DNA from: a virus
IMG/VR virus record: IMGVR_UViG_3300023112_001138
Location: 1 to 64,000 of that record
Strand: one strand, 5' to 3'
Length of the DNA: 64,000 nt
This document shows positions 3,517 to 63,308 of the stretch, piece after piece; position 1 is the first letter of the stretch, and each line of letters starts with the position of its first letter. A model generated the notes under the pieces. The model was not told the origin of the DNA, searched no databases, and saw nothing but the letters and a program-made list of their open reading frames with translations. The translations under genes were made by a program, and so were the position numbers.

Positions 3517-4755
3517 ATGGAACATAAAAAAAGAATAAACGAAACGAATTTTATGCGGAGAATGATGGGGTTACAACCTATCAACGAAGGAATTGGTGTA
3601 GATGCTGTTGATCAAGAGCAAATGCAACTAGTAAGTAATGTAATGACACCGGATGGGGCTACTGTTGCTGGTATTAGTACAGTAGCATTTAAAGATTCTG
3701 ATGAAGGTAGAGAATGGATGTCAGGAGACAAAAAAGAATTATCTGGAGAAAGATTAAAAAATGCTACTCAGCAAACTTTAGACACTGATAAAAAAATAGG
3801 TGGTTGGAAAATTAAAGATCAGGGTGATGCGATAACTATTGAAGATAAAAGGGGTGTATTTTTCAGGGTAGATACAGTTACGAAGGGGAACCCTAACTGG
3901 GCATATGTTGCCACACCTTCATCAAATTACGATGGATATGATAATAAGGACGAAGATTTCATTGATGGTATCGGTCAATCATTTCAAACATATGAGGAAT
4001 ATGCAACTTGGATAAGAGAAATATTATCTAAATATTCACCTAGTGTTGTGGGAACTACAAAACCTAAAATAGGTAAATTTGTGTGTAAAAGAGATTTAGA
4101 TTTCAATTGGTTTTTTGATGAGTTAAAAATTGGTGAAGATTATCTAAAAAAAGGTGATTGTGGTGTAGCAGTTGAGGTGGCTCAAGATCATATAAACGAG
4201 TATGAAGGTTCTGAAGTAATAAAAGTTGATGGTAAATATGGTACCGATACTATTAGTCAAGTTAAAGTGGTACAAGCTGAATTAGACGATGTTAAAGCTG
4301 ATGGTTATTACGGACAAAAAACATACGAAGCAATAGTTAAAGCACTTTGGGATGATATGGAAAGAATAACCCCAAAACCACCTAAAATGATTGACACTGA
4401 TATTGACACTGATATTGACACTGATATTGACACTGATATTGACACTGATATTGACACTGATATTGAATCAGATTTTGATTTTGATAGAGATGTTAAAGGA
4501 GGCGGTGCTATCCCCAATATAGATATAGAAGATTTTGAAGCGGTTGAAGATGAGTTTGAGAAAAAAGCTAAGGCTAAGGCAGAAAAACGAAGTAAAAAAG
4601 GTAAACGAAAACTTAATAGAATAAATAAAAGAAGTTCTAAACTTAAGAAAAGGTATAATTTTGAAGAACAAAAAACTTTTAAAGTTAAAAAGAATGGTAA
4701 AGTAATTACATTAACTGAAAGTGATGTTAAAAAAATTATTAACCTAAAAAAATAA
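3517..4755 (+). CDS. Peptidoglycan-binding-like protein with leader elements at both ends
   Basis: This 412-residue protein has a 24-residue leader of the 213-type ending INE|G (residues 22-25). Residues about 208-280 resemble a peptidoglycan-binding repeat (GDCGVAVEVAQ, VDGKYGTDTI, ADGYYGQKTYEAI). Residues 292-315 are six IDTD repeats, then a Lys-rich segment follows. The last 30 residues repeat a leader-like element (KKNGKVITLTESDVKKII) preceded by FEEQ|K. A leader-like element at the C-terminus is unusual and might allow processing or core attachment from both ends. An intrinsic terminator follows. No catalytic domain was seen. Confidence 0.72.
   Translation: MEHKKRINETNFMRRMMGLQPINEGIGVDAVDQEQMQLVSNVMTPDGATVAGISTVAFKDSDEGREWMSGDKKELSGERLKNATQQTLDTDKKIGGWKIKDQGDAITIEDKRGVFFRVDTVTKGNPNWAYVATPSSNYDGYDNKDEDFIDGIGQSFQTYEEYATWIREILSKYSPSVVGTTKPKIGKFVCKRDLDFNWFFDELKIGEDYLKKGDCGVAVEVAQDHINEYEGSEVIKVDGKYGTDTISQVKVVQAELDDVKADGYYGQKTYEAIVKALWDDMERITPKPPKMIDTDIDTDIDTDIDTDIDTDIDTDIESDFDFDRDVKGGGAIPNIDIEDFEAVEDEFEKKAKAKAEKRSKKGKRKLNRINKRSSKLKKRYNFEEQKTFKVKKNGKVITLTESDVKKIINLKK
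4390..4461 (+). repeat. 12-bp tandem repeat, six copies
   Basis: Six copies of ATTGACACTGAT encode an IDTD spacer and are followed by a degenerate seventh copy. Confidence 0.9.
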
Positions 4756-20476: not shown

Positions 20477-22954
20477 CTATTCTACTACTTTTACCTCTAC
20501 CTTTTCCTTAACTTTACTATAAGAAATCATAATAGTTTGACCTTCCTTAACATTACCTTTTAATATTTCTTCCGATACAGGGTCTTCAACATACTTTTGT
20601 ATTGCTCTATTAAGTGGTCTTGCACCATATTCTTCATCATAACCCACTTTCGCTAGAAAATCTTTTATGGATTTGGTTAGTTTAAGTTTGTAACCTATTT
20701 CTACCATTCTTTCTTGTAGTTTAGCAATCTCTAGTTTTACTATTTGAGCTATTTCTTCTTGATTAAGTGAATTAAATATAACAACATCATCTAACCTATT
20801 TAAAAATTCTGGTGGAAAATGTTTTTTAAGTTCTTTCTTTAATACATTTTTTCTATTTTCATCTGAATCACCTTCTAACATTTTAGTTGTGAAACCTAAT
20901 CCAGTACCAAAATCTTGGAGTTTCTTTGCCCCCACATTTGATGTCATTATTATCACACAATTTTTAAAGTTAACTTTCCTACCTAAACTATCTGTTAATT
21001 GCCCATCATCCAAAAGTTGTAACAATACATTATATACATCTCTATTGGCTTTCTCGATTTCATCAAATAATAATATTGAGTAGGGCTTTCTTCTAACCTT
21101 TTCGGTTAATTGACCACCCTCATCGTGTCCTACATATCCTGGAGGTGCGCCAATTAATCTTGAAACTGTATGTTTTTCTTGATATTCCGACATATCAATT
21201 CTTATTAGTGATTCCTCATTACCGAACATATACTCCGCCAATTTTTTTGCTAAATGTGTTTTCCCAGTACCGGTCGGTCCTAAAAACATAAATGTCCCAA
21301 TAGGTTTCTTTGGGTTTCTAATACCTACCCTATTTCTTCTTAAAGATTGGGATATTTTAACAATGGCACTGTCTTGTCCAATTACACTACCTTTCATATC
21401 ACTTTCCATATTTAATAACCTCTTCCCTTCATCTTCACTTAATCTACTTAATGGTATCCCTGTCATAATGGAAACCACATCACTAATATCTTCTGGTGTT
21501 ATAATGGTTCTTTTTTTATTTAATTTATCTTTCCAAACCTCTTTCTCCTCTTCAAGTTTTTCAGTTACTTGTCTTTCTTTATCCCTAAGTTTTGCAGCCT
21601 CCTCATATTTTTGATTCCTAACCACATCATTTTTTTCTTCTTTTATGTTAGTAATTTCACCTTCTAATTTATTGATAACTTCAGGGGGTTTTGCGTTAAC
21701 TTGTGATCTAGCACCAGCTTCATCCATAAGATCAATTGCTTTATCAGGAAATTCTCTGTCAGTAATATATCTATCTGATAGTTTAACACATTGTACAATT
21801 GATTCTTCTAAATAAGTTGCCTTGTGATATTCTTCATAAGAATCTTTTATTCTATTTAATATTGTAATCGTATCTTCTACTGATGGTGGGTCAACTATCA
21901 CTTGTTGGAATCTTCTGGTGAGTGCACCATCCTTTTCAATGTGTTCCCTAAAATCATCTAATGTGGTTGCACCAATTATTTGTAAATCACCTCTAGATAG
22001 TGCTGGTTTAAATACATTTGCTGCATCCATTGATCCTGAAGCATTTCCTGCACCAACCATATTATGTAACTCATCAATGAATAATATAATATCATCAGTG
22101 TTCATTAATTCATCAACAACACCCTTAATTCGTTCTTCAAATTGACCCCTATATTTGGTTCCTGCAACTAATGAAGTTAAATCTAAAGAAATAATTCTTT
22201 TATCTAATAGTGTTCTTGGGGCATCTCCCTCATATATTTTTAAAGCTAAACCTTCAATGATTGTTGTTTTACCGACACCTGGGGGTCCAATTATAACAGG
22301 GTTATTCTTCTTTTTTCTTGAAAGTATTTGTGCAACTCTTTGTATTACATCATCTCTACCGATAACTGGGTCAATATTTCCTTCTGATGCTTTTTTTGTT
22401 ATATCATCAGAAAAATTATCTAGTATAGGTGTATTAGAAGTTGTTTTTCCTCTCTTCTTGGATGGTCTATTAAATATTTCTTCTGGGTCATTAGCAGATT
22501 CAAAAGCATTATCCATATTATCGATTAATGATTTTTTAATTGTATTTTTGTAGTTTTTATAGTTTACCCCCATAGAGTTTAAAATTTTTGTAACATTATT
22601 TTTTTCTTTTAGTGTGGATAATAAAATATGGGTGGTGTCTAAATAAGATTCTTTTAATTTATCACATTCATTTTCTGATCCCTTCATTATCTTTTCTGTA
22701 TGTGCGTTCATTGGAATGTGTTTGATTATCGTTCTACCATCATCTTTCTTTTTTACTATACCCTTCTCTAACTTTCTATGTAAATCATCAATATCTATGC
22801 CCATCTCTAAAAGAAATTTTATTGATTCATTGTTAAAATCGTTTATTAACGCAATGATAATATGTTCTATCTTTATTTCGCAATCATTATAAAGTTTGGC
22901 TTCATCGATTGACTTGTTTATTATTTTTTTTACTTTCGGTAATACTTTTCTCAT
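20477..22954 (-). CDS. clpC: ClpC-type AAA+ protein-unfolding ATPase
   Basis: This 825-residue protein is a full-length Hsp100/Clp ATPase. An N domain (about residues 1-145) is followed by AAA1 with Walker A GPPGVGKTT (about 222-230) and Walker B ILFIDELHN. A UVR-like middle segment (YEEAAKLRDKER, about 430) points to ClpC rather than ClpB. AAA2 has Walker A GPTGTGKTH (about 557) and a C-terminal sensor region (EYGARPLNRAIQKYV). It feeds substrates to a ClpP-type peptidase. Whether an IGF/LGF-type ClpP loop is present I could not settle. No ClpP lies in the window, so it would use host ClpP or act alone. It has an ATATTTAT motif 20 nt upstream. Confidence 0.9.
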   Translation of the reverse strand: MRKVLPKVKKIINKSIDEAKLYNDCEIKIEHIIIALINDFNNESIKFLLEMGIDIDDLHRKLEKGIVKKKDDGRTIIKHIPMNAHTEKIMKGSENECDKLKESYLDTTHILLSTLKEKNNVTKILNSMGVNYKNYKNTIKKSLIDNMDNAFESANDPEEIFNRPSKKRGKTTSNTPILDNFSDDITKKASEGNIDPVIGRDDVIQRVAQILSRKKKNNPVIIGPPGVGKTTIIEGLALKIYEGDAPRTLLDKRIISLDLTSLVAGTKYRGQFEERIKGVVDELMNTDDIILFIDELHNMVGAGNASGSMDAANVFKPALSRGDLQIIGATTLDDFREHIEKDGALTRRFQQVIVDPPSVEDTITILNRIKDSYEEYHKATYLEESIVQCVKLSDRYITDREFPDKAIDLMDEAGARSQVNAKPPEVINKLEGEITNIKEEKNDVVRNQKYEEAAKLRDKERQVTEKLEEEKEVWKDKLNKKRTIITPEDISDVVSIMTGIPLSRLSEDEGKRLLNMESDMKGSVIGQDSAIVKISQSLRRNRVGIRNPKKPIGTFMFLGPTGTGKTHLAKKLAEYMFGNEESLIRIDMSEYQEKHTVSRLIGAPPGYVGHDEGGQLTEKVRRKPYSILLFDEIEKANRDVYNVLLQLLDDGQLTDSLGRKVNFKNCVIIMTSNVGAKKLQDFGTGLGFTTKMLEGDSDENRKNVLKKELKKHFPPEFLNRLDDVVIFNSLNQEEIAQIVKLEIAKLQERMVEIGYKLKLTKSIKDFLAKVGYDEEYGARPLNRAIQKYVEDPVSEEILKGNVKEGQTIMISYSKVKEKVEVKVVE

Positions 22955-24037: not shown

Positions 24038-24508
24038 ATGCGAAGAGATTTTAACGAAATAATAAAAGATTTGTTTACACATGACGATTACTTATGGAGT
24101 AACTCCACAATAACACCCTTTTTAAATAGGATCACTGAAAATAATCCTTTACGTAAGGATAGAGATTATGCTCAAAACCTACCACCTACCAACATTTATG
24201 AAGATGAGTGGTCGTATAGGTATGAGTTATCAACACCAGGGTTTATAAAAAACAATTTATCTGTGGAACTAGATAATAGTGTTCTTACAATAAGAGGTGA
24301 ACGAAAAAACACTAATAAAAAAGAAACTGGTGAATATATTGCTAAAGAATACCACTCCAATAAATTTTATAGGTCATTTAATTTACCTGAAAATATTGTT
24401 GCAGATGAGATACACGCAAAGGTAGATAATGGAATTACTACTTTATTTATACCAAAAGAAAAACCAACAAAGACCAAAAATTTAACAAAAACTATAGAGA
24501 TATCTTAG
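24038..24508 (+). CDS. Small heat shock protein Hsp20
   Basis: This 156-residue protein has an alpha-crystallin domain over about residues 48-145: YRYELSTPGFIKNNLSVELD, LTIRGERK, the YHSNKFYRSFNLPENI stretch and the DNGITTLFIPK end. These chaperones hold unfolding proteins and are common in T4-like phages, where they may help assembly. Together with clpC nearby it forms a proteostasis pair. A good terminator follows. Confidence 0.9.
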   Translation: MRRDFNEIIKDLFTHDDYLWSNSTITPFLNRITENNPLRKDRDYAQNLPPTNIYEDEWSYRYELSTPGFIKNNLSVELDNSVLTIRGERKNTNKKETGEYIAKEYHSNKFYRSFNLPENIVADEIHAKVDNGITTLFIPKEKPTKTKNLTKTIEIS

Positions 24509-24538
24509 CGTATCTAATATATTTAAAATAATATTTAA

Positions 24539-24566
24539 GCCATACCTTTACAGGTGTGGCTTTTTT
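24539..24566 (+). terminator. Intrinsic terminator after hsp20
   Basis: GCCATACC pairs with GGTGTGGC (one G-T pair) and is followed by six T. It closes the methyltransferase-hsp20 transcript. Confidence 0.8.
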
Positions 24567-24628: not shown

Positions 24629-24871
24629 ATGATACCATCAGCACCAAAGTTTAAAAAAATAGTATTACTAATAAAAAATGAAAATAGTAGTGATCCAGAT
24701 ATAAAACCCACAATTAGGGTTGAGCATAGTGATTGTGCAATGATCATAACTGGAGATTATGTTATTATAACAGAAGATGAGACTGGTAACAATATTGATA
24801 CACCTTCAACAGTAAAGGGGAAAATATATGTATTAAAAGAAATAGACTCATATAAACTTTTTAAAAATTAA
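24629..24871 (+). CDS. Small hypothetical protein, 80 residues
   Basis: A mostly beta protein (PKFKKIVLLIKNENSS, AMIITGDYVIITEDE, GKIYVLKEIDSYKLF). I recognise no family and see no leader. It is 3 nt upstream of the KTSC-like gene and probably co-translated. Confidence 0.6.
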   Translation: MIPSAPKFKKIVLLIKNENSSDPDIKPTIRVEHSDCAMIITGDYVIITEDETGNNIDTPSTVKGKIYVLKEIDSYKLFKN

Positions 24872-24874
24872 ATT

Positions 24875-25168
24875 ATGGTTTTAAATAAACACGAAGAGAA
24901 TGGAGCAATCGAAAACTTGTACGATTCAAGTAATATACTAGCTTCAAAGTACGATATCAGAGGTAAGAAGTTGGCAATAATTTTTAATAGTGGTAGACAA
25001 TATTTGTATCATGATGTATCAAGAAATGATTATGATGTATTTGAGGGTGCTGAAAGTCAAGGAAAAATTTTACATTCAACGATTAAAAAATATAAAGTAG
25101 AGAAAGTAGTGGACATTGTTGACACTACTTTAATTATCGAGCAGATACAAACACTGAAAAATTCATAA
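24875..25168 (+). CDS. KTSC-domain-like protein
   Basis: This 97-residue protein has the pattern of KTSC domains: KLAIIFNSGRQYLYHDVSRNDY followed by a small-residue turn (AESQGKILHSTI) and a KY. The family is a short beta-rich domain of unknown function, frequent in phages and sometimes fused to RNA-ligase or tRNA-synthetase-like proteins. The match is from memory of the motif. Confidence 0.6.
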   Translation: MVLNKHEENGAIENLYDSSNILASKYDIRGKKLAIIFNSGRQYLYHDVSRNDYDVFEGAESQGKILHSTIKKYKVEKVVDIVDTTLIIEQIQTLKNS

Positions 25169-25336
25169 ATGGAATCAAATAAAAATCAGAGATTATTATC
25201 TAAACTATATGAATGTCAAGAAATAATTCTTGCATTGAGTGGTGACACTATTAGTGAACAACATATTTTAATGTCTGAAATAATAAAAGAATTAGAATGT
25301 GATATAATAGAAGATATTGGCTATATAGGGATTTAA
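25169..25336 (+). CDS. Small helical protein, 55 residues
   Basis: The ATG overlaps the region after the KTSC-like stop. The product is helical and acidic (LLSKLYECQEIILALSGDT, EIIKELECDIIEDIGYIGI). The function is unknown. Confidence 0.5.
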   Translation: MESNKNQRLLSKLYECQEIILALSGDTISEQHILMSEIIKELECDIIEDIGYIGI

Positions 25337-25349
25337 AAAATAAATTAAA

Positions 25350-25754
25350 ATGAAAAATAATATAACAATAATATTAACACTACTATCTTTAAACCTAATA
25401 GGTCAGATAAACTATGATGTATATAGGGTAGTTGCTCACAGCAATGAAATGTATGTGCATTCAATTTCAAACACAATTAAAGTACCCCAAGAACATGCTA
25501 TATTTGTTCCAAATGTATTCTCACCTAATAATGACGGAATAAATGATTATTTCCGGGTGATGGGTAAAGGTTTAGATCATATTACAATCGAAATATATAA
25601 TAGATGGAGTCAACAAGTATTCGAAGCACCTCACTTAACAGAGATTTGGGATGGGACATACCGAGGTAAACAATGCCCCATCGGAACATATGTATACCAA
25701 CTTAAAATAGATAAAAAAATATCCCATTCAGGGACAGTAACATTAATAAGATGA
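25350..25754 (+). CDS. Secreted stand-alone T9SS type B (gliding-motility) C-terminal domain
   Basis: This 134-residue protein has a signal peptide (MKNNITIILTLLSLNLIGQ) and then a nearly complete CHU_C / gliding-motility-associated C-terminal domain: PNVFSPNNDGINDYFRVMG, ITIEIYNRWSQQVFE, WDGTYRGKQCPIGTYVYQL, GTVTLIR. In Bacteroidota this domain is the C-terminal signal of large adhesins exported by the type IX secretion system (type B). Here it is about the whole protein, with no large passenger. It would reach the T9SS of the host. It might compete for the machinery (as a decoy), mark the surface or block receptors. This is inference. It overlaps the next small gene by 4 nt. Confidence 0.85.
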   Translation: MKNNITIILTLLSLNLIGQINYDVYRVVAHSNEMYVHSISNTIKVPQEHAIFVPNVFSPNNDGINDYFRVMGKGLDHITIEIYNRWSQQVFEAPHLTEIWDGTYRGKQCPIGTYVYQLKIDKKISHSGTVTLIR

Positions 25755-25843
25755 AAGAAGTAGTAATATTTAGTTGGGTATTTGCAGGTGTTATATGTGT
25801 TTATGCGTATTATGTTAAACATAAGAAAAACCAAAACAATTAA
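25751..25843 (+). CDS. Tiny single-pass membrane peptide, 30 residues
   Basis: ATGA overlap with the upstream gene. The product is one transmembrane helix (VVIFSWVFAGVICVYAYYV) then a basic tail. The overlap suggests coupled translation with the T9SS-domain protein. Confidence 0.5.
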   Translation: MKEVVIFSWVFAGVICVYAYYVKHKKNQNN

Positions 25844-25918
25844 ATCACCATTAAATAATTAATTTCCCCAATAACTTTAATTTAATAATTAATGTGAGTA
25901 TTTATTATAAAAATACTT

Positions 25919-38824: not shown

Positions 38825-38854
38825 AACCAATAACAATTATATAAAAACGTGATT

Positions 38855-39256
38855 ATGAAACAATTAATTTTAATGTTTGCGCTATTTGTTTGTTCTTTTG
38901 CAGGTTTTTCTCAAGAAAAGGGATCAACTCAATTAAGTACTTTATCAATATCTTCAACAGAAAATGTTATTAATGTTTCCTCTCCTAGTATTACTCATTT
39001 TTTCTTTGAAAATGTGGGAATTACTTTAGGTATGGCAAACTTTGATGATATCAATGTTGGTGCGAGGTATTATGTTAAAGATAACAATTTTGCATTCGCT
39101 GGTTATGGTACCAGTTCAGAATCTTTTGATTTAGGTCTAGGTAAGACCTATAAATGGAAAGATCATGTAAACATAGAACCAAGATTAACCCTTTCGGATG
39201 TTTTAAACGATGAAAGAAATCTAGGTCTAAGTATACATTTAAACTTAGTATTTTAA
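38855..39256 (+). CDS. Small secreted beta-barrel-like outer-membrane protein
   Basis: This 133-residue protein has a signal peptide MKQLILMFALFVCSFAGFSQ and then alternating hydrophobic strands (YYVKDNNFAFAGYGTSS, HVNIEPRLTLSDVL, LGLSIHLNLVF) ending in an aromatic, typical of outer-membrane barrels or porin-like proteins. A Bacteroidota type signal peptide end (SQ|E) supports the host. Its presence inside the head cassette is odd. It may alter the host surface (superinfection exclusion) and share late expression. ATG at 38855 is preferred to GTG at 38849. Confidence 0.68.
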   Translation: MKQLILMFALFVCSFAGFSQEKGSTQLSTLSISSTENVINVSSPSITHFFFENVGITLGMANFDDINVGARYYVKDNNFAFAGYGTSSESFDLGLGKTYKWKDHVNIEPRLTLSDVLNDERNLGLSIHLNLVF

Positions 39257-50407: not shown

Positions 50408-51148
50408 TTATAAAGATCCTTGATCTATCTTAATATTCTTTAACGCAGTATATATTTTTTTAAATCTCCTCATTGATACCCTAATATCTTTAGTAGATAA
50501 CCCAGATATCTCCCTTATATAGGACAATATTAAATTTTTGTTATATTTATTCCCACTTTCTACCTGCTCAAATATAGTTTCCCAGTCTTCTAACACTACA
50601 ATTAATGCATTACCTACACGCTTTTCATTTTCAGTAATTTTTAACCCAGATAATTCTTCTTTAATGTTAGAGGATATTTCTAATATGAAAACATCTAGCG
50701 GTGTTTTATCTTCATCTTCTAAGTTATATATATAATCATCCATCTTCTCCACTGTTGAGTACATGTCTTCGTATGATAAATCAGATTTCATCTTTTTATC
50801 GGATTTTAATAATTGACCCAATAGATAATTTTTACAAATGGTACCAAAATAGGAGTATGCTTTTTTATTTTTAGATGGTTGAAACTTTTCCATCTTTGTG
50901 GCTAAAAAAGAAAGGGTGTCGGAATGAATATCTTCATAAGTGTAATCTTTCCTATATAATTTATACCGCCTAATGATTGACTCAATCATCTTATTTAGTG
51001 GTGCCTTTAAAAATGTATTATATATTTTATTTCTTTCTTCGTAATCGTCAGAGGTTAAAAATTCAACAACAGCTTTTTCTTGTTCAGGGCCAAAGTATAA
51101 ATTAGTTGTCCTTTTTCTACCCCTCTTGTTGGTGGGTTTTTCGGACAT
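50408..51148 (-). CDS. Late-transcription sigma-like factor, T4 gp55-like
   Basis: This 246-residue protein (T4 gp55 is 185) is helical with a sigma70 region 2-like pattern: YFGPEQEKAVVEFL, LYRKDYTYEDIHSDTLSFLATKMEKFQPSKNKKAYSYFGTICKNYLLGQLL. This is the layout of gp55-like factors in marine T4-like phages. It would direct host RNA polymerase to late promoters. In this window the candidate target is the ATATTTAT motif upstream of many late genes. No gp33-type coactivator was recognised. Confidence 0.8.
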   Translation of the reverse strand: MSEKPTNKRGRKRTTNLYFGPEQEKAVVEFLTSDDYEERNKIYNTFLKAPLNKMIESIIRRYKLYRKDYTYEDIHSDTLSFLATKMEKFQPSKNKKAYSYFGTICKNYLLGQLLKSDKKMKSDLSYEDMYSTVEKMDDYIYNLEDEDKTPLDVFILEISSNIKEELSGLKITENEKRVGNALIVVLEDWETIFEQVESGNKYNKNLILSYIREISGLSTKDIRVSMRRFKKIYTALKNIKIDQGSL

Positions 51149-51945
51149 TAATTTGTTTCTAATTCATATGTTATTTCTCTATCTTCAGTGAAAAAATATT
51201 CTTTTTTAGCTTTATTAACCCAAAACTTACTTTCCATTACATCTACAGTGTTTTTATAGTGATCAAACAATGAATCTTTTCTATTGTTAGTATGTTTATA
51301 CCCTAGTTTTGGTATTACCATAATTGGTATGGATAAGTAACTCATTCTTAATAGGAATTCATATGTAAACGTTAACTTCATATGTGTTTTAATACCACCA
51401 TGTTCCTCATATAATGATTTATTAACAATCATTCCATCGAAATTAAAATTCTGAATCCTCTGGAGTGTGTTATTATCTAATAACCCCATTTCTTCACTTA
51501 CATTTTTACCCCATATAGTTTCATTTGTAAAAGAAATAAATTGACCATTTTCATCACATTCAAATACTATAGGTAGGAAAACGCCAACTTCAGGGTATGC
51601 ATTTACATACTCTACCCCATTTTTGATCCATATTTGGGACATTTCATCATCATACTCTAAAAATGTAAAATACTCAGTATCGCATTTACTAACACCAAAA
51701 TTCATTTGTGATGGAAACCCATAGTCTCCATTTGTATTCTCAACCACCCTAGTTATTTCTTTTATCTCACCGTAATCAAACTTATCAAGTAGTGTTTTAA
51801 GTTTTTTATCTTTAGACCTAACTATTAATAATTCTTTAGGTTTAACTGATTGTGTTGCGATACTAGTTATTGCTCTTTTTAATAAAGTTTCTGTATTTTC
51901 TTGTACCTCATGTATTGGTAATATTACTGTAATATTATTGGACAT
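51148..51945 (-). CDS. Family 2-like glycosyltransferase
   Basis: This 265-residue protein has a GT-A fold start (ITVILPIHEVQENTETLLKRAITSIATQSVKPKELLIV), then YDD at about residue 98 (EYDDEMSQIW) as a divergent DxD. It would transfer a sugar from a nucleotide donor to an unknown acceptor. Its start is joined to the end of the next minus-strand gene. It adjoins the gp55-like gene, overlapping by 1 nt. Confidence 0.8.
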   Translation of the reverse strand: MSNNITVILPIHEVQENTETLLKRAITSIATQSVKPKELLIVRSKDKKLKTLLDKFDYGEIKEITRVVENTNGDYGFPSQMNFGVSKCDTEYFTFLEYDDEMSQIWIKNGVEYVNAYPEVGVFLPIVFECDENGQFISFTNETIWGKNVSEEMGLLDNNTLQRIQNFNFDGMIVNKSLYEEHGGIKTHMKLTFTYEFLLRMSYLSIPIMVIPKLGYKHTNNRKDSLFDHYKNTVDVMESKFWVNKAKKEYFFTEDREITYELETN

Positions 51946-51957
51946 ATTTAATTATTT

Positions 51958-53103
51958 TTATTTTTTGTTATTTTCAATTTGTAATTCAGGGGTAGTATTT
52001 AATTTCTCCTGTTCTTTTTCCCCAATGGTTTGCAACTCAACTATCCTTCTACCAAAAATTCTATTATATACTTCTTTAATAGAATTTTTCATCTCATCTT
52101 CAGTATATTTAGATTTATATTCTTCCATTGATTCTAATAAATTAGTAGGGATAGCATCCTCTAAATATAATCCAACTACGGTTGCAATTATATCTGGTAT
52201 TGCATTTAAATTTGCTGTCCATATACCATTATCATTTAAATTTAAATTACCATTTTCATCCACAGCTCCCATCCATTCAGGAACCATTCTAGGTATCTTA
52301 CCAACAACAGGTGTTCCACATTTCATAGATTCTATTGGGAATGTACCAAAACTAGATAATTCGTCAACCCACACACTTAAAAAGGATTTGGATAATTCCT
52401 TAGCGAATTCTTCTCTAGGTAATCCAGACATATCTCTAAATGTGATGAACTGATATTGTGGGTATTTTTGATAAAATATTTTAACTATTTTTAACACTTC
52501 TCTTTTATCTCTAGCTGATAATGCAACTGTAGGTATCTTTGGTTTTTCATTCTCTTTGAAATACTCTGGAATTGCCACAGGAACGATTTCAGTAGATAAA
52601 TTCCTAAATATCGATTCTATATAATTTTTAAGATTTTCATTTGTGGTTATAACCTCATTAATACCAAAATTTTGCCAATTCTCACCAATTTCTAACATCT
52701 CAAACACATATTCATATGATTGTAGAAAAACTAATCGTTTACAAGGAAATTTAGATGTTTGTTTCATAACACTAGCGAATGCTTCAGGTATAACAACAAA
52801 ATCTGATGGTCCAACTTGCAATGTTTGCGATTCGATAGAAACGTGTGGTAAATTGGCGTATTCTTCACCTAACCACTCAGCAATACCAATCCCAGTTTCA
52901 TCTTCTCTAAGTTTATAATCATTTTTATCATGTAGAATTTGGGCATTAAATCCTAATTCTCTTAATACCTTAACATGTTCATATATAGTTGCAACACCAG
53001 CAGTGGGGTTACCTTTCGTATCAAGGGTAAAAAAATAAATACCGAAGTCCTTATCGGTTATTTTTTTTATTGATTCATTTATTGCGTTAATTTGTTCACT
53101 CAT
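51958..53103 (-). CDS. Glycosyltransferase, GT-B-like
   Basis: This 381-residue protein fits a family 1/4 GT-B transferase. Near residues 250-265 is SSFGTFPIESMKCGTPVVGKIPRMVPEW, the classic donor-binding E-x7-E type signature. The N-terminal domain contains TLDTKGNPTAGVATIYEHVK. Substrates are unknown. It lies next to the GT2 gene. Confidence 0.85.
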   Translation of the reverse strand: MSEQINAINESIKKITDKDFGIYFFTLDTKGNPTAGVATIYEHVKVLRELGFNAQILHDKNDYKLREDETGIGIAEWLGEEYANLPHVSIESQTLQVGPSDFVVIPEAFASVMKQTSKFPCKRLVFLQSYEYVFEMLEIGENWQNFGINEVITTNENLKNYIESIFRNLSTEIVPVAIPEYFKENEKPKIPTVALSARDKREVLKIVKIFYQKYPQYQFITFRDMSGLPREEFAKELSKSFLSVWVDELSSFGTFPIESMKCGTPVVGKIPRMVPEWMGAVDENGNLNLNDNGIWTANLNAIPDIIATVVGLYLEDAIPTNLLESMEEYKSKYTEDEMKNSIKEVYNRIFGRRIVELQTIGEKEQEKLNTTPELQIENNKK

Positions 53104-53115
53104 ATTTTTATTTTT

Positions 53116-53421
53116 TTATAATTCTTTTATTATTCCTTTCATTAGTAATGTATTAAAAGATAATTTAAAGGGTATCGGTAACGAATTTAATGCCATAATC
53201 CCCATTTTATCATCTATTATTTCACCACAACCTAATAATGTCCCCACAAGATCTCGATACATTTCGTATTTTGCAACATCTATTTGTAAGGTATTTTGTA
53301 TGATATTTTCCGATGATTCAACAACTGTAACAGGTTCATTATCTACTTTAACTGCTTCTGACATCGCATCAATGTCTAAGTAAAATTCTTTTCCCCCAAT
53401 TTCTAATAAAATATTATCCAT
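53116..53421 (-). CDS. Small phage protein of unknown role
   Basis: This 101-residue protein starts MDNILLEIGGKEFYLDIDAMSEAVKV. It is alpha/beta, without known motifs. The ATG at 53421 is chosen over an upstream start at 53502, which would overlap the next gene and add a basic hydrophobic stretch. Similar small proteins near phoH occur in T4-like phages, from memory only. Confidence 0.6.
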   Translation of the reverse strand: MDNILLEIGGKEFYLDIDAMSEAVKVDNEPVTVVESSENIIQNTLQIDVAKYEMYRDLVGTLLGCGEIIDDKMGIMALNSLPIPFKLSFNTLLMKGIIKEL

Positions 53422-53482
53422 ATGCTTTTTTAAAAAATGTAAAATAAGTATCCCCTTAAGTAAACACTTAAAAATTATTAAT

Positions 53483-54112
53483 TTATATATCCTCAAATTC
53501 AACAGTTTCCGTACTTAGTACCTTTTCTAAAGTATTTCTATCGTCTAATAGCTCTTTTAAATCGACTAATGTGTAATCAGAATCTATATTTTTATTATAT
53601 TCGTTTATTACCTTTATTGATATCTTACCCGATGGTTTAATTTTTAACGTTTCAGGGTTGGCGGTTATTAATATATCAACATGATCCCATTTTTTATCAT
53701 AATCTCTAACAAATATTATATTATTTATTTTAGAGGATAATTTAGATAAAAAGAATAAAGTTGCTGGTTTGCTATTATTTAACTCTTTGCTAATAACAAT
53801 TGGTGTATGACCTAAATCTTCAATTATATTATGTAGTTGGTTTAGATGTTCCACACTATTTAATTTAACTTCACCTGCGTGACCGAAAATCTCTAACGCA
53901 GCGTCTACATACATAAACTCATTAAGTTCCTTTGTACCACCTGAAAATTCAAAATAGTCTAATAAATCTAAAGTTTTTATATCTCTTTCTGGTAATTCTT
54001 CTGTTTCTTCTTCCGATTCATCTATATCCACTGGGTAATATTTATCATAAACTGACTCAAACTTTGTTATGAAATCTCTTATAACACCATCTATTGTAAT
54101 ACCTACTTTCAT
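53483..54112 (-). CDS. HAD-like protein with altered nucleophile position
   Basis: This 209-residue protein begins MKVGITIDGVIRDF, which aligns with the HAD motif DxDGV(L/I)xDF of 5'-nucleotidase-type enzymes but has Thr (GITIDG) where the first Asp (GIDIDG) is expected. The remainder fits a Rossmann-like HAD (PIVISKE, NIIFVRDYDKKWDHVDILITANPETL). Such phage proteins may process nucleotides; the loss of the nucleophile suggests a non-catalytic role. Overlaps the small gene upstream (54109-54258) by 4 nt. Confidence 0.65.
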   Translation of the reverse strand: MKVGITIDGVIRDFITKFESVYDKYYPVDIDESEEETEELPERDIKTLDLLDYFEFSGGTKELNEFMYVDAALEIFGHAGEVKLNSVEHLNQLHNIIEDLGHTPIVISKELNNSKPATLFFLSKLSSKINNIIFVRDYDKKWDHVDILITANPETLKIKPSGKISIKVINEYNKNIDSDYTLVDLKELLDDRNTLEKVLSTETVEFEDI

Positions 54113-54258
54113 ACCTTTTCTATTTTATAAATTTTGAATATCTCTTTCTTAGGTAATTGTTTAACTTTAGAAAAATATTCTATAGCTAATTCCAATGAAC
54201 TCTGTTTAGTGGTGTTTATTACTTCACCAGACATATTTTTTAATACATATTTATACAT
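54109..54258 (-). CDS. Small basic protein, 49 residues
   Basis: This short frame starts at ATG (54258) with MYKYVLKNMSGEVINTTKQ and ends KIYKIEKV at a TGA. It overlaps the start of the HAD-like gene (ATGA) and begins 4 nt after the PhoH stop. It is therefore probably a real, coupled small gene. Function unknown. Confidence 0.6.
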   Translation of the reverse strand: MYKYVLKNMSGEVINTTKQSSLELAIEYFSKVKQLPKKEIFKIYKIEKV

Positions 54259-54262
54259 AAAT

Positions 54263-55018
54263 TTACCCTTCTAACTCTTCAAAAACCTTTTCGATTATTT
54301 TGATTACTGGGTTTCTAACTACATCGTCAGGGTTTCTAAGTGAAACACAACCAAAACCATCTATACCTTCAAACTTATCAATTACAACTTCTAATGAACT
54401 ATTCTTAGGGTTCTTAATATCTTTTTGTTTAATATCACCAAGAATAACCATCTTGGAGTTATCACCTATCCTCGTCATAAGGGTTCTCATATTCTGTATA
54501 GATATGTTTTGTGCCTCATCAATAATGATAATAGTATTATCTATACTTCTTCCCCTAACAAATGCTAGTGGTTGTATCTGTATTAACCCCAACTCACGTA
54601 ATTTATTAGTTAACGACTCACCAATAATCTTTTCAAAGTTATCAATAAATGATATCATATAAGGATCCAACTTATCTTTCAAATCACCTGGTAAAAAACC
54701 TAATTCTTCACCTGGTAACTGTATAACAGATTTAACCAATAAAATCTTTTTATATTTAGGTTTTGTTTTAATTAGTTTAAGTGCTTCAGCACAGGCCAAA
54801 AACGTCTTTCCAGTACCTGGAAGTCCCGAAACTATAGTGATTTCATTATTTTTAATAGACTCTATTACTAACTTTTGGTTTTCATTCTTACATTTAATAT
54901 TTACAGACATCGACTTTAGGAATTTATCCTCCTCAGCGTTTTTCTTATAAACAAAATTTTGTACTTCCTCTAATTCTTCTTCTGAGAGTTTACCTCGTCT
55001 TCTACTTGTTTTTGACAT
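54263..55018 (-). CDS. phoH: PhoH-like ATPase
   Basis: This 251-residue protein has Walker A GLPGTGKTF (about residues 65-73), the LVKSVIQLPGEELGFLPGDLKDKLDPYM stretch and Walker B IIIIDEAQN (about 165), all typical of PhoH. The gene is frequent in marine phages. The molecular role is uncertain (RNA or phosphate-stress related ATPase). It precedes the HAD-like gene in a short minus-strand operon. Confidence 0.92.
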   Translation of the reverse strand: MSKTSRRRGKLSEEELEEVQNFVYKKNAEEDKFLKSMSVNIKCKNENQKLVIESIKNNEITIVSGLPGTGKTFLACAEALKLIKTKPKYKKILLVKSVIQLPGEELGFLPGDLKDKLDPYMISFIDNFEKIIGESLTNKLRELGLIQIQPLAFVRGRSIDNTIIIIDEAQNISIQNMRTLMTRIGDNSKMVILGDIKQKDIKNPKNSSLEVVIDKFEGIDGFGCVSLRNPDDVVRNPVIKIIEKVFEELEG

Positions 55019-55055
55019 ATATTAATAATAGCGTATTAATTAAATATTGTGAATG

Positions 55056-55988
55056 TTATTTTCTAATATTATCATAATTAGATTCGAACCATTCTATTGT
55101 TTCTTTCAAACCATCATATAAAGGGGTAAATTTAAAGTTAGGTAAGTAATGTTTAATTTTACTATTATCACTTGGTTTTCTAAATTGACCGTCTGGTTTA
55201 TTTTTATCGTATATAACTTCCCCTTTGAAATCCATTAACTCAACAATAACCCCTACTACTTCTTTTATTGATATTTCTTCTGATGTTGATAATATAATTG
55301 GTTCATCTTCATTATAATTATCTAATACCCATTCTGTTAATTTAGCCACATCTTTATTATAGATAAATTCTCTTAATGGTTTACCACTTCCCCATATCAT
55401 TAGTGGTGTGTTGGTTTCTCTAGCGATATAACATTTATGAATTAATGAGGGTACGACATGTCCGTTTTCTATATCAAAGTTATCATTAATACCATATATA
55501 TTTGTTGGGATAACTGATTTATAGTTTAAACCATATTGTTCTCTATAAGCCCTGATTTGAACATCAGCCATTCTTTTAGCGTAGGCGTAAGCGTCATTTG
55601 AAAAGTGTGGTGGACCTAAATGTATTTTATCTTCCGTAAGTGGATATTCTACATTATCTGGAAAAACACATGTTGATAAAAAACAAACTAGATTTTCTAT
55701 CCCGTATTTTCTTGCGGATTCAATAACATTAGTATTGATCATAATATTGTCATAAAAAAATTCACCTTTATAATTCATATTACCACCTAACCCACCTACT
55801 TTGGCGGCACAATGAATAACCGACCCCCAATCTGTAGAATTAATATTATTAACATAGTTATTAAAAATATTTTTTGTTTCACCAATATTTCTAAGATCAC
55901 AATCTGAAGAACTAAAATAACTATATTTTTCTCCCCTAAATTGTGACCCAACTAAACCGTTGCCCCCAGTTACTAATATTTTACGCAT
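55056..55988 (-). CDS. fcl: GDP-L-fucose synthase
   Basis: This 310-residue short-chain reductase/epimerase has the nucleotide-binding glycines GGNGLVGSQF (residues 8-17), STCVFPD and the YAYAKRMADVQ motif (Y-x3-K, about 133-141), as in GDP-4-keto-6-deoxymannose epimerase/reductase. It makes GDP-L-fucose from the product of the next gene. Its start overlaps the 3' end of gmd by 8 nt. Confidence 0.88.
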   Translation of the reverse strand: MRKILVTGGNGLVGSQFRGEKYSYFSSSDCDLRNIGETKNIFNNYVNNINSTDWGSVIHCAAKVGGLGGNMNYKGEFFYDNIMINTNVIESARKYGIENLVCFLSTCVFPDNVEYPLTEDKIHLGPPHFSNDAYAYAKRMADVQIRAYREQYGLNYKSVIPTNIYGINDNFDIENGHVVPSLIHKCYIARETNTPLMIWGSGKPLREFIYNKDVAKLTEWVLDNYNEDEPIILSTSEEISIKEVVGVIVELMDFKGEVIYDKNKPDGQFRKPSDNSKIKHYLPNFKFTPLYDGLKETIEWFESNYDNIRK

Positions 55989-57015
55989 ATATAATATCTT
56001 TTTCTTTATAGTATTCTAACCAATACTCAATCATTTCATCTAACATAGTTTCAAATGTATATTTAGGTTGCCAATCCAGTTCACTTCTTAATTTAGTGGA
56101 ATCGCCCTTTAAATCGGTTAATTCTTCTGGTCTCATATGTTTACCTGAAATGGCAACATAATTTATATAGTTTAAATCTAATTTTTTAAAAACATATTCA
56201 CAAAGTTCTCTAACTGAGTGTGAAACACCAGTGGAACAAACATAATCATCTGGATTATCTGTCTGTAACATTAACCACATAGCTTCAATATAATCTTTAG
56301 CGTGTCCCCAATCTCTAGTTGCATCTAAATTACCTAAATGTAAGTTATTTTGTAAACCTAATTTTATTTTAACTGCCGCCTTAACTACTTTATTGGTTAC
56401 AAAATTAGTTCCACGTCTTGGTGATTCGTGATTGAACAATATCCCATTCCATATTTTCATATTATAAGAATTTCTATAATTCCTACAAATATTATATGAA
56501 AATACCTTAGCACACCCATAAGGTGAAACTGGTGTCATCGGTGTGGTTTCTCTTTGATACCCATCAGCATCGATATTGTTACCAAACATTTCTGATGAAC
56601 TTGCTTGATATATTTTTGAATGTGGAGATACCATTCTAACTGACTCTAATAAATTAAGTGTTCCCAATCCTGTTACATTGGCAGTGTATATTGGTTGATC
56701 GAAACTAACTTTTACGTGAGATTGAGCAGCTAAATTATATATCTCATCTGGTTGTACCATTTGTAATACCCTCACTAGTGATGCCATATCTGTAAGATCG
56801 GCATATTCTAAATTAATTTTACCTGATGAACGAAGGTGTTCTATTCTTGTTGATTGTGTTTCTGATACAGAGTTTCTTTTTACTGTACCCCATACTTCGT
56901 AATTTTTTTCTAATAAAAACTCTGCAAGGTATGAACCATCTTGTCCGTTAATTCCAGTGATGAGACATTTACGACCCTTATAAACACCATTTTCTTTTTT
57001 CACTTCTTTTCCCAT
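55981..57015 (-). CDS. gmd: GDP-mannose 4,6-dehydratase
   Basis: This 344-residue enzyme has GINGQDGSYLAEFLLEK (about 18-36), the SSSEMFG motif, YGCAKVFSYN (Y-x3-K) and NHESPRRGTNFVTNKV, all characteristic of GMD. It converts GDP-mannose to GDP-4-keto-6-deoxymannose, the first step to GDP-fucose. It overlaps fcl by 8 nt, so the pair makes GDP-fucose together. Donor mannose would come from the host. Confidence 0.93.
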   Translation of the reverse strand: MGKEVKKENGVYKGRKCLITGINGQDGSYLAEFLLEKNYEVWGTVKRNSVSETQSTRIEHLRSSGKINLEYADLTDMASLVRVLQMVQPDEIYNLAAQSHVKVSFDQPIYTANVTGLGTLNLLESVRMVSPHSKIYQASSSEMFGNNIDADGYQRETTPMTPVSPYGCAKVFSYNICRNYRNSYNMKIWNGILFNHESPRRGTNFVTNKVVKAAVKIKLGLQNNLHLGNLDATRDWGHAKDYIEAMWLMLQTDNPDDYVCSTGVSHSVRELCEYVFKKLDLNYINYVAISGKHMRPEELTDLKGDSTKLRSELDWQPKYTFETMLDEMIEYWLEYYKEKDIIYA

Positions 57016-57050
57016 TTGTATTTATATTGTTTATTTATATTTACTTGTAA

Positions 57051-58298
57051 TTATAATTTAATTGCTTCTAAATTCAAACTCATTAATGTTCCATTTTTTT
57101 TATCCATATGTGGGAGATAGGCTTGGCTATAATCATCTATTTCTCTATGTGATGTTTTTCGCCAATCCCATTCTTTTACTTTATAAAATCCAACATCCAA
57201 CAATGATTTAGTTAGATTTTCTTTAGTAAAAATCATTCCATGATAATCATATTTATTTCTTTGTCCACCTACTAATAATCCAGTTATTAAAGATAAATCA
57301 TGGGTTTTATTATAATGTTCAATTATTTTATCTAAATCGGGCACTGCCAACCTTAAAATACCGCCAGGTCTTAATTTTTTAAACCATGTTTTTAAAACGT
57401 CTTTATATTCATATCTACCAAAATGTTCTAAAATGTGACTTCCATAGATTATATCATAAGAATCATCTTCAATGGAAGAAAGATGTTTAACGTCTTCTAT
57501 TTTATCTACCCTTTCTTTATTATCAATATCTATATTTTCCCATCCCTCCATATATCTTTTACCGCACCCCACATGTAATTTTTTAATTTTACTAATAGGT
57601 GGATTAATGATTAAACTTTTTTCTTGGGTTTTTGTCATGGGAGGATGGTGATGTTTAGACACATGAAACCCTGTTGTAATATCTAAGACTGGAAAATTTT
57701 CCTTATTATAATTTTTATCAATAAAAATCAAATTTACATTAGGGATATGAGCAATTAATTCATATCCTCGTTCATTTGCTAATTTAGTTAATGCTAACCC
57801 ACTAGCTCCGTAAAATTGTGTATTATCCCATTCATGTTCCGGATTATAAGGAACAGTTGTAGATTTTTCCCAATTGGAATTATATTCTACAATAACTACT
57901 TTGGGTTTAAATCGTAAATTATCCCATATCCAATAATCACACCCATCTAAATCTAAGGACAAAATATCAAAGTCTATGGGGGTATTAGTCTTTATTAAAA
58001 TTTCATCTAAAGTATCACCTTTTTCTAATGATACCATTTTATTAATACAGGATATATTATTATATGGTTTCATATTCTTAAGTAGTGTAGAATATTTTTC
58101 TTTATCACCCTCTATTAACGTAGCTGACCACCCTTTGGTAATGAGATTATATACATTACTATATTTTATTCCGTCCCAAGCACCTAATTCTACTGAATGC
58201 CCATTTTTTATATTTAAAGTATTAAATATTGCTTCTATGATGCCATCCTCTCCTCTTTGACTCCATACTTTCTTTTTATATTCATTTAAGTTTTCCAT
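57051..58298 (-). CDS. Fusion of two methyltransferase-like domains
   Basis: This 415-residue protein has an N-terminal domain (about 10-215) with SVELGAWDGIKYSNVYNLITKGWSATLIEG, a FkbM-like or related Rossmann methyltransferase. A C-terminal class I domain (about 235-340) has KLHVGCGKRYMEGWENIDID, DIIYGSHILEHF and LKTWFKKLRPGGILRLAVPD (type 11). Methylated sugars or lipids are likely substrates. The ATG at 58298 is preferred over TTG at 58304. The domains are separated by KSLIINPPISKI. Confidence 0.8.
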   Translation of the reverse strand: MENLNEYKKKVWSQRGEDGIIEAIFNTLNIKNGHSVELGAWDGIKYSNVYNLITKGWSATLIEGDKEKYSTLLKNMKPYNNISCINKMVSLEKGDTLDEILIKTNTPIDFDILSLDLDGCDYWIWDNLRFKPKVVIVEYNSNWEKSTTVPYNPEHEWDNTQFYGASGLALTKLANERGYELIAHIPNVNLIFIDKNYNKENFPVLDITTGFHVSKHHHPPMTKTQEKSLIINPPISKIKKLHVGCGKRYMEGWENIDIDNKERVDKIEDVKHLSSIEDDSYDIIYGSHILEHFGRYEYKDVLKTWFKKLRPGGILRLAVPDLDKIIEHYNKTHDLSLITGLLVGGQRNKYDYHGMIFTKENLTKSLLDVGFYKVKEWDWRKTSHREIDDYSQAYLPHMDKKNGTLMSLNLEAIKL

Positions 58299-58307
58299 AA
58301 TCAATTT

Positions 58308-59177
58308 TTATATTTTTTTATATTTAGGTGTAATTAAAGTAGGATAAAAATTAGGGTGCCATCCATGCCAATGTAGACCTAATCGAGGGTGAATCATTTT
58401 TTTACCTTGACCAGCTCTTTTATGATAAAATATTTTTTCACTAAAAAAAGAAAATAATCCAATCATAAAACTAAAGCTACCACTAGAAATAATTACATAT
58501 TTACAAGTACTACCAAAAAGTATTGTATCTATTTTATTTTCAACAAAAGGAATAATTTTATATTTTTTAATTAATCCTTGACAAATTTTATGTTCTATGT
58601 TATCTGAAGACATATAAATATTACTATATTCATCATTTAAAGAATCTATAATACCTTCATAAAAAGCCTGATCTGGTAATACAATATTTCTTAATGGGTG
58701 ACTATCTGGATACATATGGTTTGCTCGTATATGAATAAACATATCATTATTATTTTTATATCTATCTTTATATTTATTACGGGAAATAATATTATCACAT
58801 AATTCATTTTCACTATTTGCAAAATAGTGGGTAATATGTTTAACAATACCACTATCTTGACACCAACATGGTGGATTAAAAATATATTTAGTAGATTTAT
58901 CTATAGATAAATCACCATCTAAAAACTGTTTTATTTGAGTATCAGTTATTTGTTGGCTATTTTTTATTGGGTGTATATTTTCATCTTTAAATTCTACCCC
59001 TAATTCTAAAAAATCATCGGTTTTCCACTGATAGTGGGGTGGTAAATCATAGTGTTTTGGAATTTTTTCGTACTCACTTCCTGTGTTATATTTAATAGAT
59101 AACAAATAAGTTATCATATTACGAAAGAACACATTAGCAAATAATCCTCCTTGATTGTTATTTTTACATGAAAACAT
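58308..59177 (-). CDS. GT11-like putative fucosyltransferase
   Basis: This 289-residue protein has MFIHIRANHMYPDSH (about 148), like the HxR donor motif of GT11/GT37 alpha-fucosyltransferases, and SSGSFSFMIGLFSFFS near 230, matching the SNSSFSWWgA segment. With gmd and fcl next to it, a role in adding fucose is plausible. Homology is judged by eye and is not strong; polysaccharide pyruvyl or other GT-B families remain possible. Confidence 0.6.
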   Translation of the reverse strand: MFSCKNNNQGGLFANVFFRNMITYLLSIKYNTGSEYEKIPKHYDLPPHYQWKTDDFLELGVEFKDENIHPIKNSQQITDTQIKQFLDGDLSIDKSTKYIFNPPCWCQDSGIVKHITHYFANSENELCDNIISRNKYKDRYKNNNDMFIHIRANHMYPDSHPLRNIVLPDQAFYEGIIDSLNDEYSNIYMSSDNIEHKICQGLIKKYKIIPFVENKIDTILFGSTCKYVIISSGSFSFMIGLFSFFSEKIFYHKRAGQGKKMIHPRLGLHWHGWHPNFYPTLITPKYKKI

Positions 59178-59183
59178 ATATTT

Positions 59184-59825
59184 TTATATTTTTTTATTTA
59201 AGAATTTAAAATCAAAAAGCTCAATCTCTTTTGAATACCTATTTTGAATCTCGTCAATTAATTTTTTATCATAATAATAAGAATAATGGTTGTGGGTAGT
59301 TTTATTTATATGAATTAAATTTTTATTAAAATTAAATTTTTTATTTAGGTTATCATATTCTTCTTTTAAATCTTTTAAATCTATTATTTTATCTATTATA
59401 ATATTCCCTTCTAAATCACAGAGATATTTTTCTGCACCCCACGTTGGTCTTATAAGAGGAGATTTTAAATCATTAAGAAATAAGTCGCGATTAAATTTAT
59501 CATTATTTTTCCATAAATGTAAGGATAATAGGCGCTCATAGGTATTTCTAACGATAGAAATTTTATAATATTCATTAAATTTTTTAGGGTATAATTTTCT
59601 CATTTCTAAAGCAGTTGCATGCTTATAATTAAGTGCAAACGAATCCATTTTACTAAATTTATTATAGATATCACCACCTTCTTTTAAATTAACCATAGTA
59701 TTAAGACCCTTTCTATTAAAAGTACTTATTTTATCTACCGAAAAATCTTTCCACATTACTTCTAAAGAAGATCCTCCTGTTTTGGGAATATGAATAAATA
59801 TTATTTTTTTAGTATCAGATATCAT
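59184..59825 (-). CDS. Sulfotransferase family protein
   Basis: This 213-residue protein has FIHIPKTGGSS (PAPS 5'-phosphosulfate loop, about 11-21), SIVRNTYERLLS (3'-phosphate site, about 90-101) and a C-terminal YYDKKLIDEIQNRYSKEIELF pattern, as in carbohydrate sulfotransferases (Sulfotransfer_2-like). It would transfer sulfate from PAPS to a sugar. Its start overlaps the stop of the next minus-strand gene by 4 nt. Confidence 0.85.
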   Translation of the reverse strand: MISDTKKIIFIHIPKTGGSSLEVMWKDFSVDKISTFNRKGLNTMVNLKEGGDIYNKFSKMDSFALNYKHATALEMRKLYPKKFNEYYKISIVRNTYERLLSLHLWKNNDKFNRDLFLNDLKSPLIRPTWGAEKYLCDLEGNIIIDKIIDLKDLKEEYDNLNKKFNFNKNLIHINKTTHNHYSYYYDKKLIDEIQNRYSKEIELFDFKFLNKKI

Positions 59826-60379
59826 TTTTCTATTGTTATAATTAACCTATCATCTACTATAAAGTTATTAGTTATATTAAGTGTTTTAAAACATTCATAA
59901 ATATTAGTGGTGGATATGTTACCCCAGTCCTCATATTTAGTTGTACCAAATAATCTAAAATCATCAATAATTATTATACCATGAGATGATTTATAATGCT
60001 TATCTATATGTTTACATTCTTTTATAATGGGAACCTCATAGATTCCTTTACTTGTTATACCACCAGACCAATGACCATCTAACCAAAATACAGTGTTATC
60101 AGGTATTTCACTAATTACTTTATCTAAGAGTGTTGCACTATCACCTAATATAAATTCTACATTATTTAAATAACTTAATTTTTTTCTAGTTTTTTTATAT
60201 ATTAACTCAGACACCTCGACAGTATAAATTTTTTTAAATAAAGAATACATCTCCATAACTGTTTCTCCTTGATATGTTCCCGTTTCTACAAAATAAGGAT
60301 ATTTAATATTTTCTAATTTATAATTTTTATTATTAATTATTTTTCTAATCTGATTATATTGTAGGTGAGTTAATTTCAT
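59822..60379 (-). CDS. SAM-dependent methyltransferase-like protein
   Basis: This 185-residue protein has FVETGTYQGETVMEMYSLF (motif I, about 30-48), TVEVSEL, ILGDSATLL and NTVFWLDGHWSGG. This is a class I methyltransferase pattern often found in glycan clusters of phages and bacteria. Substrate unknown. Overlaps the sulfotransferase start. Confidence 0.75.
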   Translation of the reverse strand: MKLTHLQYNQIRKIINNKNYKLENIKYPYFVETGTYQGETVMEMYSLFKKIYTVEVSELIYKKTRKKLSYLNNVEFILGDSATLLDKVISEIPDNTVFWLDGHWSGGITSKGIYEVPIIKECKHIDKHYKSSHGIIIIDDFRLFGTTKYEDWGNISTTNIYECFKTLNITNNFIVDDRLIITIEK

Positions 60380-60380
60380 T

Positions 60381-61148: not shown

Positions 61149-61208
61149 AATTTAACACTATTGTAGGTATATTAATATTTTTAATGTCTATTATTTTCAT
61201 AAGTTATA

Positions 61209-61901: not shown

Positions 61902-61903
61902 AA

Positions 61904-63303: not shown

Positions 63304-63308
63304 TTTAT

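Follow-up and report, generated by a model that had tools for sequence, protein, structure and literature searches.

Why would a phage encode a protein that consists of little more than an export tag of its host? The question is raised by a gene at positions 25350-25754 of the window, by which we mean the whole 64,000-nucleotide stretch of viral DNA analysed here (IMG/VR record IMGVR_UViG_3300023112_001138, positions 1 to 64,000). The gene product combines a signal-peptide-like N-terminus with the type B C-terminal domain (CTD) of the type IX secretion system (T9SS), on which Bacteroidota rely for gliding, adhesion and enzyme secretion and which has been linked to phage adsorption. A preliminary description of the locus had proposed a stand-alone, near-complete sorting domain behind a signal peptide, overlapping the gene of a tiny membrane peptide. 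The gene and its parts are as follows.

25350-25754, plus strand: stand-alone T9SS type B CTD protein, 134 amino acids (aa), ATG start, TGA stop; PF13585 and TIGR04131 matches, homologues in contigs L002, L003 and L004
25350-25406, plus strand: signal-peptide-like N-terminus MKNNITIILTLLSLNLIGQ, by a hydropathy heuristic
25407-25502, plus strand: linker, residues 20-51, based on host alignments and a low predicted local distance difference test score (pLDDT); conserved
25503-25751, plus strand: complete type B CTD, residues 52-134, based on profile matches and AlphaFold2 (pLDDT above 90)

The profile PF13585 (CHU_C) matched the protein with 73.4 bits (E=1.6e-20), its positions 2-85 of 86 corresponding to residues 52-131, and TIGR04131 matched with 65.3 bits (E=4.2e-18), its positions 3-85 of 85 corresponding to residues 53-134 of 134, up to the last residue; the curated cut-offs are 27 and 35 bits, respectively. 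The whole domain is thus present at the extreme C-terminus with no key region missing, which rules out a truncated domain and shows that "near-complete" had been an understatement. The larger claim, that of a phage-borne stand-alone type B sorting domain, is confirmed by the two profile libraries, the lack of cargo, the phage context and the homologues in other phages. The protein reads MKNNITIILTLLSLNLIGQ / INYDVYRVVAHSNEMYVHSISNTIKVPQEHA / IFVPNVFSPNNDGIND...SGTVTLIR, and beyond the signal peptide, a linker of about 30 residues and the CTD it contains nothing; cargo is typical of type B CTDs, albeit not strictly defining. The stretches PNxFSPNNDGIND, IYNRW, WDG and GTVTLIR are conserved. The proposed signal peptide agrees with the hydropathy heuristic, an N-terminus alike in kind and ending in Q is found in most other stand-alone CTD groups, and the predicted mature product is about 115 aa long.

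AlphaFold2, used with a 50-sequence alignment, modelled residues 50-134 with a pLDDT above 90 and left the linker poorly ordered. A fold search of the PDB returned PorZ of the T9SS (5m11) as the top match, followed by 8glk_D (TMt 0.73) and 8gl8_D, at E values of 0.003-0.02; the last two are short CTD chains within T9SS complexes. Since many unrelated immunoglobulin (Ig)-like folds score similarly, the search supports the assignment as a T9SS CTD and does not prove it. In BFVD, the structure matches were phage proteins whose annotation reads gliding-motility C-terminal domain. Phage virions often bear Ig-like beta-sandwich domains, and the CTD might accordingly decorate the particle. We consider a virion component extremely improbable, given the signal-peptide-like N-terminus, a sequence family that is a T9SS signal, the lack of any PHROG match, and the distance of these genes from the gp23 or portal gene in the larger phages.

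Does the gene belong to the phage? The window comes from a virus record of 74,146 bp with genes for a T4-like terminase, gp20 portal, gp21 protease and gp23 capsid protein, and among annotated phages the best-ranked matches of the terminase were Flavobacterium phages vB_FspM_immuto, at 27% identity. An assembly join with host DNA, which the preliminary description had named as one of two findings that would undo its claim, is ruled out by full-length homologues (77-100% identity) in three further phage contigs and three contexts: a separate 64-kb contig, 99.99% identical to the window over 16 kb, a contig of 245,874 bp (84% at the amino-acid level), which has a gp23 gene of its own, and a 44.6-kb contig (77%). 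The gene is surrounded by HSP20, KTSC and nucleotidyltransferase-like genes in the window, lies immediately 3' of the thymidylate synthase gene thyA (PF00303) in L003, and is found amid small open reading frames (ORFs) for membrane or lipoprotein-like products in L004. The DNA shared by the window and L003 extends from about 19 nt 5' of the ATG to the ATGA at which the gene overlaps the next one. A plasmid search gave no match, and a scan of genome contigs gave one host locus only. For copies 77-84% identical across the three neighbourhoods, the ratio of non-synonymous to synonymous substitution rates (dN/dS) over the whole gene was 0.07-0.19, with the linker constrained like the domain; these ratios are rough because dS is close to saturation for some pairs. 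The gene is under purifying selection, and hence neither an assembly join nor debris.

The selection pattern also bears on the origin of the gene. Host alignments begin at focal residue 19-24, showing that the linker resembles the end of the domain that precedes the CTD in longer host proteins. This resemblance makes an internal deletion likely, and the simplest reading of the sequence is that the gene arose in this way from a T9SS-substrate gene. Conceivably, it is just a non-functional leftover of a longer gene captured from a host, as the host-like linker, a CTD relic in L216 and near-identical contigs (see below) and the L178 copy, cut short at 79 aa, might suggest. However, this is largely refuted by the low dN/dS over diverged copies in differing contexts, the signal peptide has been retained, and stand-alone genes recur in at least eight phage groups, so that we hold a mere remnant to be very improbable.

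This recurrence emerged from a hidden Markov model run over every viral locus that had been fetched, the kind of survey of other phages that had been recommended earlier; it established that the feature is not unique to the focal phage. Stand-alone proteins of about 107-134 aa, made up of a signal peptide and a CTD, occur in at least eight sequence-distinct phage groups: the focal one; L039/L177/L178; L137/L139/L140/L149 with L135/L136; L193; L171; L129; LR756502; and LR745206, the last two being phages of 642 kb and 634 kb. TIGR04131 matched all ten stand-alone proteins tested, with L193, L171 and LR745206 at 30-34 bits, slightly below the 35-bit cut-off, and PF13585 was above its cut-off for every stand-alone protein run against it. 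The remaining phage CTDs are carried on secreted proteins of about 170-1670 aa. Many viral contigs (L006-L063, L121-L201), some with gp23, encode secreted proteins of about 170-1100 aa with a C-terminal type B CTD, and phage-encoded T9SS substrates are a widespread class. One 43.5-kb viral contig, L129 (IMGVR_UViG_2529292698_000002), encodes a stand-alone CTD of 133 aa as well as a 1006-aa protein with a CTD; judging by the IMG number, the contig presumably comes from an isolate genome, and a cultured host may therefore exist. The annotated phage records with a CTD were metagenomic only, with no isolate among them.

In hosts, about one of some 300 listed CTD frames stands alone, after contig-edge fragments and one probable frameshift had been dropped. 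That one, G028 (127 aa), seems a true host stand-alone CTD. G011, G018, G212 and G215 were discarded because they lie at contig ends, and G068 (135 aa) because it adjoins a PorP/SprF-like gene downstream of a 1230-aa frame and is probably a frameshifted adhesin. The corresponding viral figure is 10 of 53 non-redundant complete frames (Fisher p about 3e-8 against hosts), a p-value that is indicative only, since all four scans were seeded with stand-alone proteins and may favour stand-alone matches, host frames were counted by eye from output lists, and host and viral units are not strictly comparable. The recurrence of stand-alone CTDs in phages is itself solid.

What could such a protein do? 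Type B CTDs of Flavobacterium johnsoniae need cognate PorP/SprF shuttles, and the endogenous shuttle is barely detectable (PMC12618676). Overproduced CTD fusions were secreted only when the shuttle was co-expressed, and shuttles were concluded not to be recycled (PMC12618676). A cognate PorP/SprF gene is nearby in 9 of 12 F. johnsoniae cases, and predicted complexes of published cognate pairs reached an ipTM above 0.8 (PMC12618676). By the same search that finds five PorP/SprF shuttles in a Bacteroidota genome, we found none in 12 phage records, so that the phage must borrow those of its host. We infer a course of events in which the free CTD protein is probably exported by Sec into the periplasm of the infected Bacteroidota cell. 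There, the SprA translocon and host PorP/SprF-type shuttles would accept the folded domain as a substrate. Since the supply of shuttles is small and their use stoichiometric, a free CTD expressed at a high level could titrate them, or it could occupy the translocon, and the display of SprB-like host type B adhesins would fall. Such adhesins are thought to be needed for the adsorption of flavobacterial phages, and phage adsorption and resistance have been linked to gliding and T9SS proteins (PMC13288928, PMC7345892); the outcome would be superinfection exclusion, arrested gliding, or both. We favour this account of a cargo-free decoy that depletes limiting type B shuttles or translocons, at something close to, if still short of, an even chance. 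The roles suggested in the preliminary description, namely occupying the T9SS, altering motility or receptors, and excluding other phages, fit the literature and what can be read from the sequence.

Two observations weigh against the decoy. Efficient type B secretion has been reported for 150-235 aa, and the mature protein of about 115 aa falls below this range; it may therefore not be handled by the T9SS like a normal substrate, or not engage the system at all. In addition, a near-invariant glycine of the domain is replaced by serine in the focal copy (NRWSQ). The length also bears on another explanation, in which the protein is a small secreted effector that rides the host T9SS, becomes anchored via an SprF-like shuttle on the surface or the gliding machinery, and there masks a receptor or changes adhesion. 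In agreement with this, a type B CTD alone directs fused cargo to the gliding machinery or surface (PMC12618676), the linker is conserved like the domain, as expected of a functional payload, and in many other phages the CTD is part of a larger secreted protein. However, L039, L177 and L149 have almost no residues between signal peptide and CTD, which means that there is no shared payload, and the below-range length speaks slightly more for a decoy that is poorly exported than for an effector that is displayed efficiently. Display is in our judgement a serious contender, and still an unlikely one.

The surroundings of the gene suggest a further possibility, that it acts together with its neighbour. 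The relevant features are these.

25751-25843, plus strand: 30-aa peptide with a single predicted transmembrane (TM) segment, beginning within the ATGA stop overlap; conserved, yet separable from the CTD gene
25836-25862, plus strand: probable relic of a thyA 3' end (TIKSPLNN and stop), matching the thyA end in L003 at 27 of 28 nt
24629-25336, plus strand: small upstream genes for 80 aa, a KTSC-domain protein (24875-25168) and 55 aa, likely in one operon with the CTD gene
24537-24562, plus strand: terminator-like stem-loop of 11 pairs, 3' of the HSP20 gene, by consensus match only

The stem-loop is a possible upstream border of the operon, and the KTSC gene is also close to the CTD in L193; a promoter scan of the window was uninformative (26 found, against 17 expected in AT-rich DNA). 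In a two-gene module, the CTD would only place or regulate the 30-aa membrane peptide, for instance in lysis timing or Imm-like exclusion. The 4-nt ATGA overlap of the two genes is suggestive of this, as is the conservation of the peptide beside the CTD in L004. By contrast, the ATGA at the end of the CTD gene leads into a different ORF in L003, L216, L217, L218, L222 and L220 have the peptide without the CTD, and other stand-alone CTD groups are without the peptide. An obligate pair is thereby ruled out, and we regard the module as quite improbable. The tiny peptide noted earlier, with its 4-nt overlap, is nevertheless a real, separate gene, which recombines at the same joint as the CTD gene without being its obligate partner.

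Further traces of this exchange are found in other genomes. The contigs L216, L217, L218 and L222 are near-identical and carry T4-like clamp-loader genes of a replication cluster. In all four (L216:2283-2414), the last approximately 15 codons of the CTD gene (IDKTTSQSGTITLIR and stop) persist as a relic, followed by the intact 30-aa TM peptide, and this is the only DNA they have in common with the window or L004. Together with the peptide that stands without the CTD in L220, the relic marks the CTD gene as a dispensable accessory gene. Stand-alone CTD genes adjoin thyA or lie within two genes of it in L003, L193 and L171; L005, L134 and L151, where the CTD proteins are longer, also had thyA matches in the flanks that were fetched, and in LR756502 and L140 the CTD gene has a polyA-polymerase-like gene nearby. 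It is possible, and we say so tentatively, with doubt outweighing belief, that free CTDs form a class of phage inhibitors that jam the T9SS as substrate mimics, repeatedly gained by internal deletion of T9SS-substrate genes and swapped as small accessory genes.

A separate observation concerns the element AACCAAAACAAAGATGA, which is among the most repeated 16-17-mers in two phages, G001 (L227-L239) and G002 (L240-L242). With up to 2 mismatches allowed, it has 15 and 19 copies there, where about 0 would be expected, and these cluster right at the ATG of small ORFs. The element may be a shared leader for translation or a joint at which small accessory genes recombine, and its pattern resembles the modular shuffling described for T4-type phages. 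We dropped the notion of a stop/start joint since ORFs of at least 25 aa flank just 7 of 31 copies on both sides in that frame, and it may rather be a translation-start leader.

Elsewhere in the window, signal-peptide-like N-termini were seen in a DUF2927 protein (PF11150; 19795-20457, minus strand) and in a 135-aa protein encoded between the portal and prohead protease genes (38849-39256, plus strand). A ClpB/ClpC-type double-AAA chaperone of 825 aa (20477-22954, minus strand) is encoded near the small HSP20 gene (24038-24508). A minus-strand block (51148-63932) includes a gene for GDP-mannose 4,6-dehydratase (PF16363, 344 aa) along with what look like other sugar-nucleotide or glycosyl genes. 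Finally, a perfect 12-bp tandem repeat ATTGACACTGAT of 6.4 copies (4390-4478) lies within a 412-aa ORF with a weak match to a peptidoglycan-binding domain.

Phage proteins tagged for the T9SS are already known; in the open-access literature we found no account of a bare type B CTD that recurs as a phage gene. A free secretion signal made by a phage would serve as a natural T9SS probe or inhibitor and open a phylum-specific route to superinfection exclusion, and it raises the question of whether the shuttles can be saturated by a type B CTD on its own. Independently of the decoy model, the recurrence of bare CTDs among T4-like and huge phages suggests a wider use of the host T9SS by phages than the published reports we found describe. 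Small phage exclusion proteins such as Imm and Sp of T4 and Llp of T5 block DNA injection or a single receptor. Should the decoy model be right, the CTD protein would work like these, to which no sequence relation is claimed, but would block the delivery of receptors to the surface. With SprB and other F. johnsoniae adhesins (PMC12618676) the phage protein shares a complete type B domain at the C-terminus behind a signal peptide, the motifs and the predicted fold class, whereas it has neither cargo nor an adjacent PorP/SprF gene and is shorter than an efficient secretion signal. Three BFVD entries from uncultured Caudovirales, annotated automatically as "Gliding motility-associated C-terminal domain" (A0A6J5L8Z9, A0A6J5NJX2 and A0A8D9CF28), have the same domain by structure comparison, and one of them has, at 108 aa, a length similar to that of the stand-alone groups. 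Gut phages that carry BACON domains also have genes with T9SS sorting domains; these lie close to the head section and, in a single case, on a BACON ORF, and are not described there as free domains (PMC6949934). A further parallel is the T9SS cargo of Cryophage, likewise phage-encoded with a sorting domain, for which superinfection exclusion has been proposed (PMC7468147); there, however, type A domains are borne by enzymes or PA14-domain proteins, whereas the focal phage encodes a bare type B domain.
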